64,000 bases of DNA from Oscillospiraceae bacterium (GTDB taxonomy: Bacteria > Bacillota > Clostridia > Oscillospirales > Oscillospiraceae). The DNA lies in contig CAJTGJ010000005.1 in NCBI GenBank assembly GCA_910575695.1, forward strand, positions 85,993-149,992. Reading direction: 5' to 3'. The notes beneath the pieces are model-generated. The model saw nothing but the letters and a program-made list of their open reading frames with translations, made no database searches and was not told the origin of the DNA. The position numbers and the translations under genes were made by a program. Below, in pieces: positions 2,039-63,167 of this stretch. Position 1 is the first letter of the stretch; each line of letters opens with the position of its first letter.

Positions 2039-2695
2039 TTATGCACCATTTTCTTGAACCAGGGCAAGCATCTGTTCCGGGCGCTCAATGATATGATCCG
2101 CCCCTGCGGCTTCCAGCTCCGCCCGGTCCCGGAAGCCCCACAGCACTCCCACCGCCGTCAAGCCGCCGTTTTTTCCCGTGCGCACGTCCACGTCGCTGTC
2201 CCCCGCAAACAGGGTACGCTCGGGGCTGGCCCCCAGCTCCTCCATAACGCGGCGCAGAAGGGTGGGGTCAGGCTTCAGCGGCACGTCGGGCAAGGCCCCC
2301 TGCACGTGCTCAAACACGCCGGGGAAATAGCGCTCCACCACCGGTCCGGCCAAAAAGTGGGCCTTGTTGGACAACACCGCCATATGCGCCCCCAGCCCCT
2401 TCAGCGCCGCCAGAAGCTCCGGCACCCCGGGATAGGGGGCGGTCCTGTCCTCCTTATGCGCGTCATAGTACGCGGAAAACTGCGCTGTGGCCTGGGCCAG
2501 CGCGTCCCCAGCCGTCCCGGCGGGGGCGAAGCGCTCCACCAGCTTTGGGATGTCGTTGCCCACCATATGCTTATATGCGTCCACCGTATGAACAGGCCAG
2601 CCGCGGGAGGCGCAAACATAATTCCCCGCAGCCGCCAAATCGTCAATGGTGTTCAGCAATGTTCCATCCAAATCAAAAATAATATGATCAAACAT
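2039..2695 (-). CDS. HAD-superfamily phosphatase, phosphoglycolate phosphatase-like
   Basis: Haloacid dehalogenase fold phosphatase of subfamily IA, 218 residues. All four HAD motifs are visible: DLDGTLLNT near residue 8 (nucleophile Asp plus acid/base Asp), VLSNKA near 106, Lys in KPDPTLL near 140 and GDSDVDVRTG near 164. A helical cap sits between motifs I and II. Phosphoglycolate is the usual annotation, but substrate cannot be deduced from sequence. ATG 2695 is preferred over an in-frame ATG at 2740 because the protein then begins MFDHIIFDLDGT as in the family; GGAGA lies 13 nt upstream. A dispersed hairpin repeat separates it from prfA. Confidence 0.85.
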   Translation of the reverse strand: MFDHIIFDLDGTLLNTIDDLAAAGNYVCASRGWPVHTVDAYKHMVGNDIPKLVERFAPAGTAGDALAQATAQFSAYYDAHKEDRTAPYPGVPELLAALKGLGAHMAVLSNKAHFLAGPVVERYFPGVFEHVQGALPDVPLKPDPTLLRRVMEELGASPERTLFAGDSDVDVRTGKNGGLTAVGVLWGFRDRAELEAAGADHIIERPEQMLALVQENGA

Positions 2696-2754
2696 ACTTA
2701 AATATCCATCTCCCAGTCCGCCGCAGCAGCCGCGAAACATCTCCCGCTCTGTCC

Positions 2755-2809
2755 CGTCAGCGAGCTTAAAGTTCTTTTTCGGTTCCTTTTTACTTCAAGG
2801 AAAAGGAAC
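2755..2809. repeat. Dispersed intergenic hairpin repeat, copy A
   Basis: Positions 2755-2779 are identical to 42708-42732. Each copy is followed by a long perfect hairpin whose sequence differs: here GTTCCTTTT (2782-2790) pairs with AAAAGGAAC (2801-2809). The repeat abuts the prfA stop codon, on the 3' side of a minus-strand gene, the same placement as copy B at tex. Probably a REP-like element or a mobile terminator-like unit. Confidence 0.75.
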
Positions 2810-3867
2810 TACCCTCGTTCCGCCAGCTGTTCGGCCTGCCGGGCGGTGGTGAGGGCGTCGATGATCTCGTCCAAATCCCCGTCCATCACCGCGTCCAGCT
2901 TGTACAGCGTCAGCCCCACCCGGTGGTCGGTGAGACGCCCTTGGGGGAAATTGTAGGTGCGGATGCGCTCGTTGCGCATACCCGTGCCCACCTGGCTGCG
3001 GCGGTTCTCGCCGTACTCCGATTCCACCCGCTCCCGCTCCCGGTCGTACAGGATGGACGCCAGCAGGCGCATGGCCTTTTCCCGGTTCTGGAACTGGCTC
3101 CGCTCCTGCTGGCACTCCACCACCGTGCCCGTAGGACGATGGATCAGCCGCACGGCGGAGGAGGTCTTATTGATATGCTGGCCCCCCGCCCCGGAGGACC
3201 GGAACACCTGCATCTCCACGTCGGCGGGGTTGATTTCCACATCCACCGTCTCCATCTCGGGCAGGACCGCCACGGTAACGGTGGATGTATGCACCCGCCC
3301 GCCGGATTCCGTCTCCGGCACCCGCTGTACCCGGTGGACGCCGCTCTCAAATTTCATCCGGGACCAGGCGCCGTCCCCCTCGATGGTGAAGGAAATCTCC
3401 TTCACGCCTCCCAGCTCCGTCTCGCTGGCGCAATTGACCTCCACCTTCCAGCCCCGGGCCTCGGCGTACATGGTATACATCCGGGTCAGGGAGTGGGCGA
3501 ACAGGGCGGATTCCTCCCCCCCTACCCCGGCCCGGATCTCCATAATTACGTTCTTGCCGTCGTTGGGGTCCTTGGGGAGAAGCAGAATTTTGATTTCCTG
3601 CTCCAGCCGTTCGATATCCGACTTGGCCCGGGCCAGCTCCTGCTGGGCCAGCTCCTTCATCTCCGGGTCGCCCAACAGCTCCTCCGCGTCCGCCAGGTCG
3701 CTTTGGGCCCTGCACAGCGCCCGGTATGCCGTTACCAGCGGCTCCAGTTCCTTCTGCTCCCGGTTCAGGCGGGAGACCAGCTCCGGGTCGCTGTAGGTCT
3801 CGTTGGCGGCTAAGCGGGCCTCCAGCTCCTGATATCTCAACTCAATGGCTTTTAACTGTTCGTCTAT
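2809..3867 (-). CDS. prfA: Peptide chain release factor 1, probable AUA start codon
   Basis: Class I release factor that reads UAA and UAG in the ribosomal A site and triggers peptidyl-tRNA hydrolysis. The catalytic [16 protein letters not shown] is at about residue 203-218 and the codon-recognition segment [13 protein letters not shown] near 158. If translation starts at ATA (3865-3867) the product is 352 residues, beginning [17 protein letters not shown] (initiator Met in practice), as expected for the family. That ATA has GGGAGGGG 6 nt upstream. No ATG, GTG or TTG lies in frame between it and a TTG at 3960, which is inside an intergenic hairpin and lacks a ribosome site. ATT at 3889-3891 is another poor option. 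Ends in TAG at the edge of repeat copy A. Confidence 0.9.
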
Positions 3868-56383: not shown

Positions 56384-58054
56384 TTACTTCAGGCCGTTCT
56401 CGTAGGCCTCAATCATCTTCTTGAACGTGTGGCCCGTACGACACTTGAGCTTTTCCAGGGAACGGGCGGTGCTCTCGCCGGTGAAGATCTTCACGTCCAG
56501 CCGCAGGGAGCCGTCCTCCTCGGGGGTCACATAGATTTTGTCGATATACTGCTCCACGAACTCCTTGCCGATCAACCCCTGGGCAGCGCTGTCCTGGGCG
56601 GCTTTCAGGGTGCGGCGGATGTCCTCAATGTGCTTTTTGCAGTCGGCACTGGATTCCATCTGCTCCTCCAGCTCCTGGATGGCTTCCTCCGCCGCTTCGA
56701 TTTCGGCGTTGCACCCGGCGGTCATGGACAGGAAGTCCGCATCGGAAATCTGGCCCGTCACGTTGTACTCCAGCAGCTTGGCCTTTTTCTTCTGGGCCAG
56801 CTCCGCCGCCTTGCGGTGCTCCTCCATGCGCTTAGGCAGTTCACCGTTGTCTGACAGCTCCTTGTACATCCGCACATATTCCTCCACCATGGCGTCGGCG
56901 TCCGCCTTTGTCTCCTTGAACACATCGAACAGCAGAGGCTTCAGCTCCTCCTCATAGATGGCGAAGGAGGGGCAGGAATCCGCCCCGGCCTTGATCTTGC
57001 CGGAGCACACCCATTTGCTGTTTTTGTTCCCTTGGCGGTCTCTGGACTCCCGGCGGTAGTAGGGGGCCCCGCAGTGGGTGCAGAACAGCTTGCCGGTGAG
57101 CAGGTTGTCGTGGTTGCAGATGCCCTGGCGGGCCTTCACGTCCTCGCTGCGGCGGCGGAGCACCGCGTTAGCCTGCTCCCAAAGCTCCTCGGATACGATG
57201 GCGGGGACGATTTCCCCCGTTTCGTCCTTGAACATCACCCACTCCTCCGGGGGAAGAAACTTCTGCTTCTTGGTAAACATATCAACGACCCGTACTTTAT
57301 TCCCAACGTAATACCCTTTGTATTTGGGATTGGCGATCATGTTGGACATGGTGGAGTGGGCGATTTTGTTGCCCTTCAGGTTGCGGTAGCCCTTGTCCCA
57401 GAAGATGATTTCGATCTGCTTCATAGAGTATTGGTCGGTGGCGTACAGCTCGAACAGCTCCCGCACCATAGCGGCCTGTTCCTCGTCGATGACCAGCCGC
57501 TTGTTCTCCTTGCGGTAGCCGAAGATGCGGTCGTTGCCCAGCACCACGCTCTGCTTGATGGCCTGCTGGTGGCCGAACTTCACCCGGCTGGACAGCTTGC
57601 GCAGCTCATCCTGGGCGATGGAGGACATGATGGACAGGCGCAGTTCGCTGTCCTCATCGAAGGTGTTGATGTTGTCATTTTGGAAGAACACGCCAACGCC
57701 AAAGCCCAGCAGCTGGCGGGTATACTGAATGGAGTCCAGGGTGTTGCGGGCGAAACGGGAGATCTCTTTCGTGATGATGAGGTCAAATTTATCTGCACCT
57801 GCATCGTCAATCATGCGGTTGAAGTTCTCTCGCCTGCGGGTGGAGATACCGGACAGACCCTCGTCGATGTAGCCGGGGACGAAGATCCACGCTTTGTTTT
57901 TGCGGATCAGATCCTCATAGTAGCTGATCTGGTTGCCCAGAGAGTTGAGCTGCTCATCGCTCTCAGAGGACACCCGGGCGTAGTAGGTCACCCGCAAGGG
58001 GACGTCGTAGACGGCCCGGGTGCGCAGCTCCTGGCGGATGGTATGTAGGTCCAT
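56384..58054 (-). CDS. Large serine recombinase (integrase)
   Basis: 556 residues. N-terminal resolvase domain with catalytic Ser in TYYARVSSESDEQLNSLGNQ near residue 24-43, the recombinase domain with ELFELYATDQYSMKQIEIIF near 192, a zinc ribbon (LLTGKLFCTHCGAPYY near 315, paired with VCSGKIKAGADSC), and a coiled coil near 385-470. Excises and integrates the element by strand exchange at att sites. GGAGGGGG precedes the ATG. Full-length, so probably active; an 8-bp inverted repeat sits before the start. Confidence 0.93.
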   Translation of the reverse strand: MDLHTIRQELRTRAVYDVPLRVTYYARVSSESDEQLNSLGNQISYYEDLIRKNKAWIFVPGYIDEGLSGISTRRRENFNRMIDDAGADKFDLIITKEISRFARNTLDSIQYTRQLLGFGVGVFFQNDNINTFDEDSELRLSIMSSIAQDELRKLSSRVKFGHQQAIKQSVVLGNDRIFGYRKENKRLVIDEEQAAMVRELFELYATDQYSMKQIEIIFWDKGYRNLKGNKIAHSTMSNMIANPKYKGYYVGNKVRVVDMFTKKQKFLPPEEWVMFKDETGEIVPAIVSEELWEQANAVLRRRSEDVKARQGICNHDNLLTGKLFCTHCGAPYYRRESRDRQGNKNSKWVCSGKIKAGADSCPSFAIYEEELKPLLFDVFKETKADADAMVEEYVRMYKELSDNGELPKRMEEHRKAAELAQKKKAKLLEYNVTGQISDADFLSMTAGCNAEIEAAEEAIQELEEQMESSADCKKHIEDIRRTLKAAQDSAAQGLIGKEFVEQYIDKIYVTPEEDGSLRLDVKIFTGESTARSLEKLKCRTGHTFKKMIEAYENGLK

Positions 58055-58161: not shown

Positions 58162-58234
58162 GTTACAAATCGTCGAATAATGTCGAGAAAAATGTTACAA
58201 TACATTTGACGAAACGCAGGAATTATGTTACAAT
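58162..58234 (+). promoter_or_regulatory. Promoter with three spaced GTTACAA repeats
   Basis: GTTACAA occurs at 58162-58168, 58194-58200 and 58227-58233, spaced 32 and 33 bp, about three helical turns. The last copy forms the -10 TACAAT (58229-58234) of a promoter with TTGACG (58206-58211), 17-bp spacer, for the ATPase gene. Confidence 0.55.
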
Positions 58235-58275
58235 CATCCCATGTGTCTTATGGAAGCGGAAAGAGGGGTGCGGCC

Positions 58276-59634
58276 ATGCTTCGGCGGAAAGCCTATGAAT
58301 ACCTGAGTGAATGGAAAAATCAGAAGACAAAAAAGGCCCTGTGCGTCACCGGCGCACGCCAGATTGGTAAAACCACGCTGATCCGGGAGTTCGGGAGGCA
58401 AAACTATGAGAACTTTGTTGAGCTCAATTTTGTGACGGAAAAGGACGCTGGCGCCATCTTTTCCGGCAGTCTAGACGCGGATACTATCATCACCAACCTC
58501 AGCGCCTACACCCGCAGGCCCATGGAGCCGGGCCAGACGCTGGTCCTGCTGGACGAGGTGCAGGAGTGCCCCGAGGCCCGCACCGCCATCAAGTTTCTGG
58601 TTGAGGACGGGCGGTTCGACTATATCGAATCCGGCTCCCTTATGGGAGTGCGGCACAAGGAGGTGGCCTCCTACCCGGTGGGGTTTGAGGAGCTGTACCG
58701 GATGTACCCCATGGATTTTGAGGAATTCCTGTGGGCCAACGGCGTCCAGCCGTCCACCATCGACTATCTGCGGGACTGCTTTGACCGGCTGACGCCGGTG
58801 TCCCAGACCGTCCACGAGACGATGAAAAAGCTGTTCCTCAGCTATATCGTGGTGGGCGGGATGCCGGAGGCTGTCCAGCTCTATGTGGACACCCACGACA
58901 TCGCCAAGGTGGCGGCGCTGCAAACCGACATCCTGGAGCTGTACCGGCTGGACATCTCCAAGTACGCCCAGGGGAACGACAAGCTGAAAATCCGGGCCAT
59001 CTTTGACAGCATCCCCTCCCAGCTCAACGCCAAGAACCGCCGGTTCGTCCTCACCGATGTGGACGCCAACGGGCGGCAGCTGCGGTATGCCAACAGCTTT
59101 GAGTGGCTGGCGCAGGCCGGGGTGGCCCTGCCCTGTTACAACGTGTCCGAACCCAAGGCCCCGCTGGCGCTGAACGAAAAGCACAGCCTGTTCAAGCTGT
59201 TCATGGGGGACGTGGGGCTGCTGTGCGCCGCCTGCATGGAGAACGTCCAGTTCTCCATTTTGCAGGGCGACCTGGAAATCAACATGGGCAGCATTTTGGA
59301 AAACGTCATCGCCCAGCAGATCAAAAGCGCCGGACTGTCCCTGCACTTTTTTGACGCGAAGAAATACGGGGAGCTGGATTTCGTCATCCAGAACGGCCTG
59401 CATATTGAGCTGGTGGAAGTCAAATCCGGGAAGGACTACAAAAAACACGCCGCCCTGGACAAGGTGCGGAAGGTAAAGGAGTGGCAGGCGGAAAAGGCCT
59501 ACGTATTCTGCCAGGGGAACATCGAGGAGGAGGACGGCGTGACATACCTGCCTTGGTACGAGATCATGTTCCTTCAGCTGGACCGGCTGCCGGACACCAT
59601 GAAATTTGAGGTGGATATCAGTGCCTTACCGTGA
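58276..59634 (+). CDS. AAA ATPase with DUF4143 domain
   Basis: 452 residues. Walker A TGARQIGKTTLIREFG near residue 25, Walker B VLLDEVQECPEARTAIKFL near 84, and a C-terminal DUF4143 domain with nuclease-like DFVIQNGLHIELVEVKSGKDY near 372-392 (D-E-K in a PD-(D/E)XK arrangement: ELDF then ELVEVKSG). Widespread in bacteria with unknown role. In this element it lies between integrase and mobilization genes, divergent from the integrase. ATG 58276 has AGAGGGG upstream. Confidence 0.85.
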   Translation: MLRRKAYEYLSEWKNQKTKKALCVTGARQIGKTTLIREFGRQNYENFVELNFVTEKDAGAIFSGSLDADTIITNLSAYTRRPMEPGQTLVLLDEVQECPEARTAIKFLVEDGRFDYIESGSLMGVRHKEVASYPVGFEELYRMYPMDFEEFLWANGVQPSTIDYLRDCFDRLTPVSQTVHETMKKLFLSYIVVGGMPEAVQLYVDTHDIAKVAALQTDILELYRLDISKYAQGNDKLKIRAIFDSIPSQLNAKNRRFVLTDVDANGRQLRYANSFEWLAQAGVALPCYNVSEPKAPLALNEKHSLFKLFMGDVGLLCAACMENVQFSILQGDLEINMGSILENVIAQQIKSAGLSLHFFDAKKYGELDFVIQNGLHIELVEVKSGKDYKKHAALDKVRKVKEWQAEKAYVFCQGNIEEEDGVTYLPWYEIMFLQLDRLPDTMKFEVDISALP

Positions 59635-59695: not shown

Positions 59696-59863
59696 TTACA
59701 TGGATGCCCCCTGCCAGCCACTGATCTTCAGCGCCATCCGATTGCGCTCCTGTTCGGTAATGAGCCCCTTCTCATATAGGACCCGGTTGTAGTAGTCCAG
59801 CCAGAGGCGGCTGCCCAGCTCCCGCTTTTTCTGCGCCTCAGGGGTGGTCTTCTGCTTTGCCAT
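59696..59863 (-). CDS. Small element protein of unknown function
   Basis: 55 residues: MAKQKTTPEAQKKRELGSRL, then WLDYYNRVLYEKGLITEQE and a basic end. Mostly helical. GAGGAGG lies 10 nt before ATG 59863. Small proteins of this kind accompany mobilization genes in clostridial elements; no function known. It follows the relaxase gene by 111 bp. Confidence 0.65.
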   Translation of the reverse strand: MAKQKTTPEAQKKRELGSRLWLDYYNRVLYEKGLITEQERNRMALKISGWQGASM

Positions 59864-59974
59864 GGACGTACCGCCTCCTCTCGGTGAAATGATTTCCAGT
59901 TTTGGCATTTGCTATTCGTATGGTAATGGCGTGCTCCTCTCTCCCGGGATGGCCCAGGACACAAAAAACAGACC

Positions 59975-61363
59975 TCAAAGGGTCTGCTCTATGGTATATT
60001 CCTCGTGGTCGTCCGGCTTGTGGCCGGCAGCAATCTTCTTTTCCCGCTCGCGGCGGAGGGTCTTGCTCTCGCTGTGGGGCCGGGTCACGTAAACACTGGG
60101 TTGAGTGCGCTCCAGAGCACGCCCCAGCCGTACCACAGCGCCCACAGCGCTGCCAATATCAGCGGCAGAAAAAGCCAGCCCAGGGATGGGCGCGGCAGGC
60201 TGGTTTTGAGAAAGCGAGCCGAAAAACGCCGCCCGCGCTTCTTCCCATCCTGTCCCTTCCCCTGCCGCACCAGCAGCTGACGGATCGCCGTCAGTTCCTT
60301 CTGTTCCTGCTCCATCAGACTTCGGACGGACGCAGTTTCCCGGTTCATTGTCTGGATCTGCTCCCACCGGGGGAGCGCAGTCAGGCACTGGGACAGCTCC
60401 TCTAAAATGACGGTCTGCTCCCCCAGCACCTCGCCCATCGTCCATAGGATTTGGCGCAGTTTCTGCCACTCCTCCACCGTTGGACAAACCGTCTGCACGG
60501 GAGCCGTTTTCGTCTGTGCAGACGGCTCCCCAGGCGGCACAACCGGCACGCCAGGCGGCAAGTTGCGCCGCTTCAATTCCTCCAGCGATGATCTGCTGTC
60601 TGATGGCAAACTCATGCTCCATCCTCTCCTTCCAATATTTTTCCTCATGGAGTTTCCGGTCTCGCACCGTCTTCCCGTTGGGGTGGGTGTAGGTGATATT
60701 CTGCCGCCCCGGCTCCCAGCGCACACTGTAGCCCAGACACTCCATCTCACAAATAAACTCTTCCCGGTTTGCCGCCCGTCTCATACACTGGTCAATGGCG
60801 TTCATAGTCTGAAACTTCCAACTCTCGCCCTTGGCCGCGGAGCGGTACTCCCGGCCCGTCATGCCTTGGGATTTCGGCTTCTGCGGCGGCAGGACACTGA
60901 GCCCGCGGGCCTGACACAGCCCATCGGAAATCCCGCGCAGCCGTGCCAGCGTCCCCGGACCTTGGCGGAGCATTTTCCCAGTCCCATGGCACACTGCATT
61001 AACCACAAAGTGGGAGTGGATGTGGTCAGCGTCCACATGAGTGGCAATCAGCACCTCGCTGTCTGGCCACGCCTGGGCGGCAAACTCCTGTGCGATCTGG
61101 TGTGCGGTGGCCCCGTCTATGTTCTCGTCCGGGTGGAAGGATTGGGTATAGTGATAGAACCACACCGGGCTGTTCTTATGCCACGTGGAGCGGGTGGTTT
61201 TGAATTCCCGGCAGGCAAACTGGGGTGAGCAGTTCTGCCCGGACACCAGACGCATCCCGCCAGCATCATCCCAGGTCTTTCCCGCCTGCACGACGTACTC
61301 GGCCACCCCTTTCAGCGCCCCGGCAGACTGCTCCTTGTAGCGGATAAAATTTACCGTCGCCAT
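59975..61363 (-). CDS. MOBP-type relaxase (MobA-like)
   Basis: 462 residues. Relaxase nicks oriT and pilots the strand in conjugal transfer. The His triad is in ATHVDADHIHSHFVVNAVCHG near residue 108 (H-x-D...H-x-H). A Tyr-containing opening (GVAEYVVQAGKTW near 19) may hold the catalytic Tyr. The catalytic part covers about 1-225; residues 250-426 are Gly/Ala/Asp-rich, low complexity and overlap another gene; the end REREKKIAAGHKPDDHEEY looks like conserved family tails. The ATG shares one base with the mobC stop (TGATG). Confidence 0.88.
   Translation of the reverse strand: MATVNFIRYKEQSAGALKGVAEYVVQAGKTWDDAGGMRLVSGQNCSPQFACREFKTTRSTWHKNSPVWFYHYTQSFHPDENIDGATAHQIAQEFAAQAWPDSEVLIATHVDADHIHSHFVVNAVCHGTGKMLRQGPGTLARLRGISDGLCQARGLSVLPPQKPKSQGMTGREYRSAAKGESWKFQTMNAIDQCMRRAANREEFICEMECLGYSVRWEPGRQNITYTHPNGKTVRDRKLHEEKYWKERMEHEFAIRQQIIAGGIEAAQLAAWRAGCAAWGAVCTDENGSRADGLSNGGGVAETAPNPMDDGRGAGGADRHFRGAVPVPDCAPPVGADPDNEPGNCVRPKSDGAGTEGTDGDPSAAGAAGEGTGWEEARAAFFGSLSQNQPAAPIPGLAFSAADIGSAVGAVVRLGRALERTQPSVYVTRPHSESKTLRREREKKIAAGHKPDDHEEYTIEQTL
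60085..60615 (-). CDS. Nested gene inside the relaxase gene: membrane-anchored MobB-like protein
   Basis: 176 codons, wholly within the relaxase gene in a different frame (relaxase residues about 250-426). ATG 60615 follows GGAAGGAGAGGATGGAGC. Protein layout: Pro-rich 19-45; amphipathic helical, probably coiled coil, 47-118; basic GKKRGRRFSARF near 124; one membrane helix about 145-170 (LGWLFLPLILAALWALWYGW); short outside end. It reads like a natural protein while the relaxase frame over the same bases is low complexity. Comparison to RSF1010 MobB, nested in mobA with a membrane segment, is by arrangement only; no sequence similarity is claimed. Confidence 0.6.
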   Translation of the reverse strand: MSLPSDSRSSLEELKRRNLPPGVPVVPPGEPSAQTKTAPVQTVCPTVEEWQKLRQILWTMGEVLGEQTVILEELSQCLTALPRWEQIQTMNRETASVRSLMEQEQKELTAIRQLLVRQGKGQDGKKRGRRFSARFLKTSLPRPSLGWLFLPLILAALWALWYGWGVLWSALNPVFT

Positions 61364-61680
61364 CAGCGGCGCTCATGGCTGGTAAGCACCTCCAGCCTGT
61401 CATAGACACGGCCCAGTGTCTGGACCATACTGTGCAGATCCGGCGCGGCAAACCGGCCCTGGTGGGCCAGCATGGTCAGCTGGTTCAGGTTGCGGCCCAG
61501 GCCCTTCAGCTCGTGGGCCAGTTCCTTCAGCCCATCCACCACCACGACCCTGTGGCGCATAGCCGCCGCCCGGATATAAGCGCTGGGCGTCATCTGGGCC
61601 ATCTCTGCCCGGGTGCAGATGCTCTTGTATTGTTCCGGCGTCAGCCGGATGGTGATGCGGATATCTTTGTTCTGCTTCAA
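61363..61680 (-). CDS. MobC-family relaxosome protein
   Basis: 105 residues. Ribbon-helix-helix N-terminus (IRITIRLTPEQYKSICTRAEM near residue 7-27, split at the fold: ITIRLTPEQY, then MTPSAYIRAAAMRH) and the C-terminal MobC motif ELKGLGRNLNQLTMLAHQG near 57. It bends and opens oriT for the relaxase. Overlaps the relaxase start by one base; translationally coupled. Confidence 0.9.
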   Translation of the reverse strand: MKQNKDIRITIRLTPEQYKSICTRAEMAQMTPSAYIRAAAMRHRVVVVDGLKELAHELKGLGRNLNQLTMLAHQGRFAAPDLHSMVQTLGRVYDRLEVLTSHERR

Positions 61681-62105: not shown

Positions 62106-63098
62106 TCACGAATGCTTTACCCCCTTACCCTCTTGGGCCGTTTCCGGTAGGTGGGAATACCAGCGGCCGCCCCGGCGGATGGCGGTCACACCCAGATTCT
62201 GCTTGGCTATCTTCAGCGTCCGTTCCGAGATTCCCTGTGCGGACGCATGGCTGAACAGTTCATCCGAGGCCATCTCCCCACCCTCCAGCAGGTTGAGCAA
62301 TAGCCGTTCCGCCTGCTCCGTTTTGGTGGTGCTGGGGCCGCTTCCGGAGAGCAGTTCGCTGGCGGTGGTGTCACAGAAGCCATCCCAGCGGAAACCCTTC
62401 TCCAAATCCAGAGAGAACAAAATGGCGGGACCTTCCAGGGCAAGACTGCTCTTGTCATGTACCGCAACCCGCAGTTGGTCATCGTCCTTGGCCCTCCCCA
62501 CCAGAAGGACGCTTCGTGCAGCCGCACGGAAATCGATGGAGCCAAGCCCACGGTATGCGGACTTGGCCCCCTGCATTTTGTTCATGTGTCCCACCAGCAC
62601 AATGGCACAGCCGGTCTGCTCCGCCAGATGTCCCAGCCGCTTGAAGATGGGACGCACCTCGTTGGCCCGGTGCATATCCACGCCGTTTCCCAGATACGCC
62701 TGTATGGGGTCAAGCACTGCCAGCCCCGCACCCGTCTGCCGGATGGCCTGGGCCAGCCGCTGGTCGTCCAAGGTCAACTCCCGTTCGCCCTCATCGATCA
62801 CCAGCACCCGGGAACAGTCCGCGCCCAGCGCATCCAGCCGGGGGCGGATGGTGTCCGCCAGACCATCCTCCGCCGTCTGGTAGATAACATTTATGGGCGG
62901 CGCAGCCGCGTTTCCTCCCGGCATGGGAAACCCCTGGGTCAGCAGGGCCGTCAGCGCCAGTACGAAGGTGGTCTTACCATCACCGGGATCACCTTGGATG
63001 ATGGTAATCTTCCCGCGGGGAAGGTAGGGCCGCCATAGCCAGCGCACCTCCTCCGCTTGGATATCGCTCATGGCGAGCAATTTCAACTGCTGTTTCAT
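62106..63098 (-). CDS. RepA-like AAA ATPase/helicase
   Basis: 330 residues. RecA-like ATPase with Walker A IIQGDPGDGKTTFVLAL near residue 33, Walker B-like LAVLDPIQAYLG near 129 and AIVLVGHMNKMQGAKSAYRG near 165 in the style of hexameric RepA (AAA_25). A winged-helix part at the C-terminus (TEQAERLLLNLLEGGEMASD; LFSHASAQGISERTLKIAKQ). Probably unwinds or replicates the element. ATG 63098 has GGAGGACGAAA in front; ATG 63167 upstream is less suitable. Confidence 0.85.
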   Translation of the reverse strand: MKQQLKLLAMSDIQAEEVRWLWRPYLPRGKITIIQGDPGDGKTTFVLALTALLTQGFPMPGGNAAAPPINVIYQTAEDGLADTIRPRLDALGADCSRVLVIDEGERELTLDDQRLAQAIRQTGAGLAVLDPIQAYLGNGVDMHRANEVRPIFKRLGHLAEQTGCAIVLVGHMNKMQGAKSAYRGLGSIDFRAAARSVLLVGRAKDDDQLRVAVHDKSSLALEGPAILFSLDLEKGFRWDGFCDTTASELLSGSGPSTTKTEQAERLLLNLLEGGEMASDELFSHASAQGISERTLKIAKQNLGVTAIRRGGRWYSHLPETAQEGKGVKHS

Positions 63099-63167
63099 TT
63101 TCGTCCTCCTCCAAATAAAAATCGCCCCGTCCGAAGACGCGGCGTCCGGCCCTTGTGGAGCCTTCAC

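Follow-up and report, generated by a model that had tools for sequence, protein, structure and literature searches.

A gene lies wholly inside, and out of frame with, the relaxase gene of a mobilizable element in an Oscillospiraceae genome, and we consider it almost certain that this nested gene is real. We suggest that its product is probably a tail-anchored docking protein of the MobB type, belonging to an integrative mobilizable element. The MobB-type reading is based on evidence that the shared bases code, and are under selection, in both frames, on a start signal within the relaxase gene, on a membrane helix that is predicted for the product, and on the gene order, the place of the gene, and its wide conservation. 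The protein is conserved in gut mobilizable elements but hidden within a relaxase gene, a location that gene-finding programs tend to pass over, and it is a candidate link through which these elements would use the transfer channel of a helper.

The nested gene and the element around it

Positions refer to the window, i.e., the whole 64,000-nucleotide stretch of DNA that was analyzed. The following genes probably belong to the element or lie beside its mobilization genes:

56384..58054, minus strand: large serine recombinase (Resolvase, Recombinase, and zinc ribbon matches)
59696..59908, minus strand: 70-aa ORF downstream of the relaxase, before the cargo gene (no significant family)
59975..61363, minus strand: relaxase, MobA/VirD2-like, 462 aa (PF03432, E 2.2e-30)
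61363..61680, minus strand: NikA-like relaxosome accessory protein, 105 aa (PF21983, E 5.3e-21)
62106..63167, minus strand: AAA ATPase (AAA_25), upstream of the mobilization genes (family match)

The relaxase has a MobA/VirD2-like nuclease domain with an HxH motif (PF03432; HIHSHF in the window relaxase); the label MOBP, which we use for this host relaxase, is taken from the typing of related plasmids. The stop codon of the NikA-like gene overlaps the relaxase start by one base (TGATG). The large serine recombinase is likely the integrase of the element, and the AAA_25 ATPase probably belongs to the same element, which combines a site-specific recombinase with a relaxase as an integrative mobilizable element does. 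A search for two coupling-protein families, PF02534 and PF12846, gave no matches on the window's contig (C5), and 28 and 14 matches, respectively, elsewhere in the genome. The absence of such matches from contig C5 fits a mobilizable element that borrows a channel.

Several further observations concern the surroundings. With 28 PF02534 matches on its other contigs, this genome (G000) offers numerous potential helper elements; its assembly carries a contamination rating of 6%. An AAA_14/DUF4143 ATPase gene, likely cargo, occupies positions 58225-59634 on the opposite (plus) strand, between the recombinase and the relaxase. In L151 (8242-18576), the region next to the element and past the window's upper end contains genes that we read by eye, from their translations, as coding for a TIR-domain-like protein, a type III restriction-modification-like pair, a second serine recombinase, and a sigma-factor-like protein; together they resemble a defence cargo region.

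The nested gene and its parts, each on the minus strand, are:

60085..60615, minus strand: nested gene, 176 aa, +1 frame relative to the relaxase (ORF list, relatives, profile, AlphaFold)
60626..60633, minus strand: Shine-Dalgarno GGAAGGAG of the nested gene; its AAG GAG are the K-E codons of the relaxase motif KExxxHE
60562..60588, minus strand: N-terminal motif SLEELKRRN of the nested protein (family motif; short helix 11-17 in AlphaFold)
60250..60477, minus strand: predicted helical hairpin, nested residues 47-122 (AlphaFold)
60238..60253, minus strand: doubly read motif, relaxase TGWEE (60239-60253) and nested QDGKK (60238-60252)
60091..60180, minus strand: predicted C-terminal membrane helix, nested residues 146-175 (hydrophobic stretch, AlphaFold)

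The nested frame has an ATG start and 176 codons, all within the 462-codon relaxase ORF (59975-61363, minus strand). It shares relaxase codons ~250 to 426, and ~35 relaxase codons remain after the nested stop. Counted from its first possible start, a GTG at 60750, the frame would be 221 codons long; the ATG at 60615 is at the place where the start is retained in relatives. A sequence-only reading of this DNA had proposed a 176-codon gene inside the relaxase gene with a Shine-Dalgarno of its own. The gene is borne out by the sequence and by the start place kept in relatives, and GGAAGGAG is present at 60626-60633, where that reading had put the ribosome-binding site, which also has a codon bias in relatives (described below). 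Further downstream, one short segment is read twice in a conserved way, the family consensus being TGWE.eR in the relaxase frame and eQaGk..E in the nested frame.

Build and proposed role of the nested protein

Proteins of the nested family begin with a shared motif, MsSxsexxlSmeELkxxNxP, carry eQaGkxxE ahead of the anchor, and are hydrophobic toward the C terminus. Across the 52 loci with an intact gene (see the next section), 0-19 residues separate the most hydrophobic 19-residue window from the C terminus, the charge before it is positive in 46/52, and a second hydrophobic stretch occurs in 1/52. AlphaFold, given a 30-row alignment, returned a mean pLDDT of 81 and a pTM of 0.33, with helices at residues 11-17, 47-80, 84-122, and 146-175 of the window protein. 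The predicted build is that of a tail-anchored protein with a helical stalk, and the charge pattern suggests that its N-terminal part would be cytoplasmic. A membrane-anchored product had been proposed from the sequence, and it holds as a prediction from the hydrophobic C-terminal helix and the AlphaFold model; the single membrane helix, the positive charge before it, and the helices were likewise recovered by a hydrophobicity/charge scan and AlphaFold. The window protein matched no family in Pfam, NCBIfam, or PHROGs, and the 30 family members had no family common to more than one of them. Matches confined to a single member were taken as coiled-coil noise and rejected.

RSF1010/R1162 MobB and ColE1 MbeB hold the relaxosome at the membrane near the coupling protein. 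By analogy, the nested protein may act in mobilization and bind the relaxase or the coupling protein. Judged from its sequence, the nested gene is probably translated, and we propose the following mechanism. First, ribosomes would start the nested gene inside the relaxase message, where the bases for the relaxase motif KExxx[HYR]E double as a Shine-Dalgarno and a start codon. Second, the N-terminal SLEELKxxN motif and the helical hairpin would lie in the cytoplasm, while one C-terminal helix would hold the nested protein in the membrane. There it would probably dock the relaxosome (the relaxase plus the NikA-like protein) beside the coupling protein of the helper element. The nested gene occupies the MobB place of mobC-mobA-mobB plasmids, but the relaxase frame continues beyond it here, so that the relaxase gene encloses all of it. 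Production of the relaxase and its anchor from one message would be coordinated, which could plausibly explain why the nesting has been retained.

Conservation and selection in both reading frames

A search with the nested protein matched 23 of 300 genomes of the family (its own genome included), from 16 of 106 genera, as well as three loci of named assemblies, two of which are Intestinimonas; the N-terminal part of the relaxase had matches in 120 of the 300 genomes. Our locus set comprises the window and 58 relatives, 59 places in all without duplicates, in which the relaxase match has at least 40% identity and reaches residue 235. Left out before this count were fragments without the relaxase part (L010, L022, L028, and L032), copies of counted places, and matches ending before residue 235 (L075, L082-L086, L088, L092, and L095-L102), while L076-L081, L087, L089, L093, L094, and the plasmids are outside the 59 for their lower identity. 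The relaxase frame of L075, a relative at 40% identity, is interrupted near residue 217.

In 52 of the 59 loci there is an intact +1 gene of 124-191 codons whose start falls on the corresponding relaxase residue and whose stop precedes that of the relaxase. A start-type codon at the homologous residue was part of the intactness criterion, and no locus had an intact gene with another start. The start codons are ATG (33 loci), GTG (16), CTG (2), and TTG (1). The relaxase frame of these 52 loci is open from its first residues in 45, cut by the locus edge in four, and broken upstream of the overlap in three (L017, L026, and L090); the nested gene and a complete relaxase frame therefore occur together in 45/52. 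These 52 loci form a natural set for studying how the same bases can serve two proteins.

A profile of 30 nested proteins matched 29 of 345 genomes of the order and 8 of 398 genomes of the phylum, both counts including its own genome and three of the eight phylum-level matches being weak. We examined 24 of the profile-matched places, a subset from which L124-L130 and others were left out, and found the nested gene intact at the same place in 20. These 24 were chosen by the nested protein, include some near-copies and two loci whose relaxase is cut by the locus edge (L133 and L154), and are no independent test. The other four are L131, without the N-terminal part of the relaxase; L138, with a broken relaxase; L153, with a frameshift in both frames; and L152, discussed below. 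In L131, a nested-type gene (2473-2976) and a frame like a relaxase tail (2556-3209) survive without the N-terminal part, and a downstream gene reads, by eye, like a tyrosine recombinase. A tblastn search of plasmid and phage records with the nested protein gave no match. In viral contigs, the nested protein had one 16-residue match (L032), and the relaxase part had none.

Seven of the 59 loci are without an intact nested gene (L007, L069, L047, L052, L061, L073, and L074). The frameshifts of L007 and L069 strike both frames. L047 (G077:C4) has a single TAG in the nested frame with the relaxase open, the sole such case among the 58 relatives, and the same state is found in L152 (G487:C14), outside that set. 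At both TAG sites, relatives have a glutamine (by eye). Recent losses, sequence errors, and read-through of TAG are all possible explanations. The remaining four, L052, L061, L073, and L074, have no nested gene and a shorter relaxase tail: 82-138 relaxase residues follow the start point, versus a median of 195.5 in nested loci, which indicates that the gene and this segment of the relaxase go together. The sequence-only reading had named stops in the nested frame beside an intact relaxase as evidence against it. That pattern does exist in L047 and L152 and counts against the reading, as does the lack of the gene in two lineages, whose four loci lack part of the relaxase tail along with it.

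To compare the two frames, we counted changes by codon position in 43 pairs of loci with 80-98.5% identity. In the N-terminal part of the relaxase, there were 0.051, 0.034, and 0.197 changes per site at relaxase positions 1, 2, and 3, respectively. The corresponding values were 0.158, 0.115, and 0.116 in the overlap, and 0.099, 0.112, and 0.245 after the nested stop. We also considered 11 disjoint pairs, with no locus in common, which were hand-picked from the 43 after the listing had been seen. In these, the third-position share of changes was 0.70 upstream, 0.295 in the overlap, and 0.555 after the nested stop, and the third position was the highest in 11/11, 2/11, and 10/11 pairs, respectively. 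Relaxase position 1, which is the wobble position of the nested frame, was the highest in the overlap in 9/11 pairs. The fall of the third-position share over the overlap shows that silent changes in the relaxase are no longer free where its gene also carries the nested one. Hence, the synonymous constraint that a nested gene predicts was found, with freedom regained after the nested stop. Selection on just one of the frames would be expected to give values to either side of those counted, and both frames therefore appear to be under selection in the overlap.

The start signal points the same way. A Shine-Dalgarno pattern is present in 51/52 loci, L006 being without a clear one. Its lysine codon is AAG in 52/52 (versus 470/741 lysines upstream), and its glutamate codon is GAG in 48/51 (versus 499/763 glutamates upstream). 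We also ran simulations that kept each relaxase protein and drew on its own codon usage. With the window relaxase, ~0.24 of the simulated versions had an open +1 frame, and the open frame in this one sequence is weak evidence. Over the 52 loci, simulated open +1 frames had a mean of 10.2 and a maximum of 20 in 500 runs, versus 52 observed; the 52 were selected as intact, and the fair comparison is with 52/59, seven loci having been set aside. The loci and pairs are related, so p-values are not exact. Together with the simulation, the codon-position counts (43 and 11 pairs) lead us to reject a chance open frame, unless these counts reflect an alignment artefact.

Could the nested protein be the only product under selection in the overlap, with the relaxase tail there a passive spacer? 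The relaxase frame is low in complexity, and it is slightly less conserved: median pairwise identity is 26%, versus 31% for the nested proteins over the same bases. The short tails of the four gene-less relatives (82-138 residues versus 195.5) would also suit a spacer. However, the nested wobble position should then exceed the others by more than 0.158 versus 0.115 and 0.116. The relaxase frame also keeps a TGWE..R motif in the overlap, and a similar SGWEYER is found in gene-less L052 and L061. We regard a passive tail as unlikely. The earlier expectation of a low-complexity relaxase frame, tolerant of overprinting, is right as to composition (Ala plus Gly make up 29.5% of overlap residues in the 52 loci), but the frame is not simply free: the TGWE..R motif is kept.

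The nested gene might also be real, overprinted on the relaxase tail, and yet encode a surface, host-interference, or entry-exclusion protein. Helices and a membrane anchor are all that the protein shows, and in ColE1 a nested gene that follows mbeB, mbeD, is annotated as a mobilization/exclusion protein. Moreover, two lineages without the nested gene retain the relaxase, and L131 keeps the nested gene without the N-terminal part of the relaxase. A function apart from docking is nevertheless improbable in our judgment: the nested start coincides with the MobB place of 7/10 plasmids (see below), the gene belongs to an accessory-relaxase-recombinase set, and MbeB is likewise nested, in +1, and membrane-spanning.

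Finally, we consider it very improbable that selection acts on the relaxase only and that the nested frame is a by-product, an open +1 frame arising from an Ala/Gly-rich tail. In its favor, roughly one in four simulated versions of the window relaxase has an open +1 frame, conservation of one frame can carry over to another, and the nested frame is interrupted by a stop in L047 and L152. Against it, relaxase third-position freedom drops over the overlap and returns after the nested stop, codons are biased at the Shine-Dalgarno, open frames are far above simulation, and conservation of the nested frame equals or exceeds that of the relaxase frame.

History and comparison with MobB-type systems

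On a tree of 58 relaxases selected from the loci, the nested state requires three changes, versus 16.2 in shuffles. Most simply, there was one gain and two losses (L052 with L061, and L073 with L074). The fork uniting nested and gene-less relatives has a support of 90/88 and the plasmid branch 89/58, both unstarred. The nested arrangement is old and conserved. We found no description of the nested gene in the open-licence PMC literature, a scope that does not exclude prior publication.

The closest known systems fall into three groups. First, we compared ten Firmicute plasmid relaxases, 26-37% identical and hand-picked from 60 rows spread over 1376 records. In seven of them (L103-L106 and L108-L110), the same relaxase residue marks the start of a +1-frame membrane protein whose gene extends 127-679 bases beyond the relaxase stop; L107, L111, and L112 have no such +1-frame membrane protein. 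Examples of the plasmid MobB include the DUF334 protein on S. aureus pRIVM4390, S. epidermidis pSE50D-3, and Priestia pBM200, and we take the pC221 type to count among these mobC-mobA-mobB plasmids. The nested gene resembles the plasmid mobB in the order accessory protein-relaxase-membrane protein on the same strand, in its +1 frame and its start at the same relaxase residue after a Shine-Dalgarno, and in one or more membrane segments in the C-terminal half. It differs in that it ends inside the relaxase gene, whereas the plasmid mobB overruns the relaxase stop.

The gene tables of the seven plasmid records, which are incomplete, list mobB with a later start in five and omit it in two. Frames starting inside the relaxase gene include L108 2120-2806 and L106 2132-2938, for which the later start is listed, and the unlisted L103 2201-2851 and L110 2150-2716. 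This suggests that the mobB start sites in related plasmid annotations may merit re-examination.

Overlapping mobilization genes have been published for such plasmids. Three partly overlapping genes, mobA, mobB, and mobC, are described for S. aureus plasmid pKKS49 in an excerpt of PMC6157413, and the start of mobB overlaps the stop of mobA in the pLd plasmids of lactococci (PMC6098607, section 7). With these reports, and with the +1 start residue shared by 7/10 plasmids, the idea of a separate, convergent invention in Firmicutes, as advanced in the sequence-only reading, is weakened. Aligned with a plasmid MobB profile, the nested family gave an hhalign probability of 1% over 13 columns, the plasmid side consisting of 6 divergent rows, and neither DUF334 nor DUF6040 matched the window nested protein or the 30 members. 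These comparisons detected no sequence homology between the nested family and plasmid MobB and so lend common descent no support; the nested gene and plasmid mobB may still share an ancestor. The nested protein sits where MobB sits and is built like MobB, while membership by sequence is not supported by hhalign.

Second, a gut Bacillota element, IME_Rho_tet, likewise combines a serine recombinase, a relaxase, and mobC in one element, and the excerpted text on it mentions no nested gene (PMC12904643).

Third, nested mobilization genes are known from two classical plasmids. R1162 MobB reportedly has a role in stabilizing the relaxosome. In RSF1010/R1162, mobB lies inside mobA in another frame, and MobB is needed for mobilization (PMC2200642); the relaxase is of another class (MOBQ) than the host gene in the window. 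Judged from published descriptions, the proposed likeness to this mobB holds in place and build. The likeness to the nested genes of ColE1 is supported, again in place and build, for mbeB. This gene lies wholly within the mbeA frame, in +1, behind AAAGGAG, with a start at approximately residue 230 and one membrane segment; mbeA, missing from the gene table of the record, was taken as an open frame. Unlike the nested protein, MbeB has its membrane segment in mid-protein, and ColE1 has a second nested gene, mbeD. The MbeB family was not among the matches of the 30 members at E 0.01.

A broader history is conceivable, and we offer it tentatively, as a possibility that we would not favor over its negation. 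The doubly read start and the +1-nested membrane protein may be one inherited feature of the MOBP module, common to ColE1 mbeB, the Firmicute plasmid mobB, and the nested family. This very old gene pair would then have persisted in different phyla even as the nested protein diverged until no likeness was recognizable, and the relaxase would have come to enclose the whole gene later, in the gut lineage.
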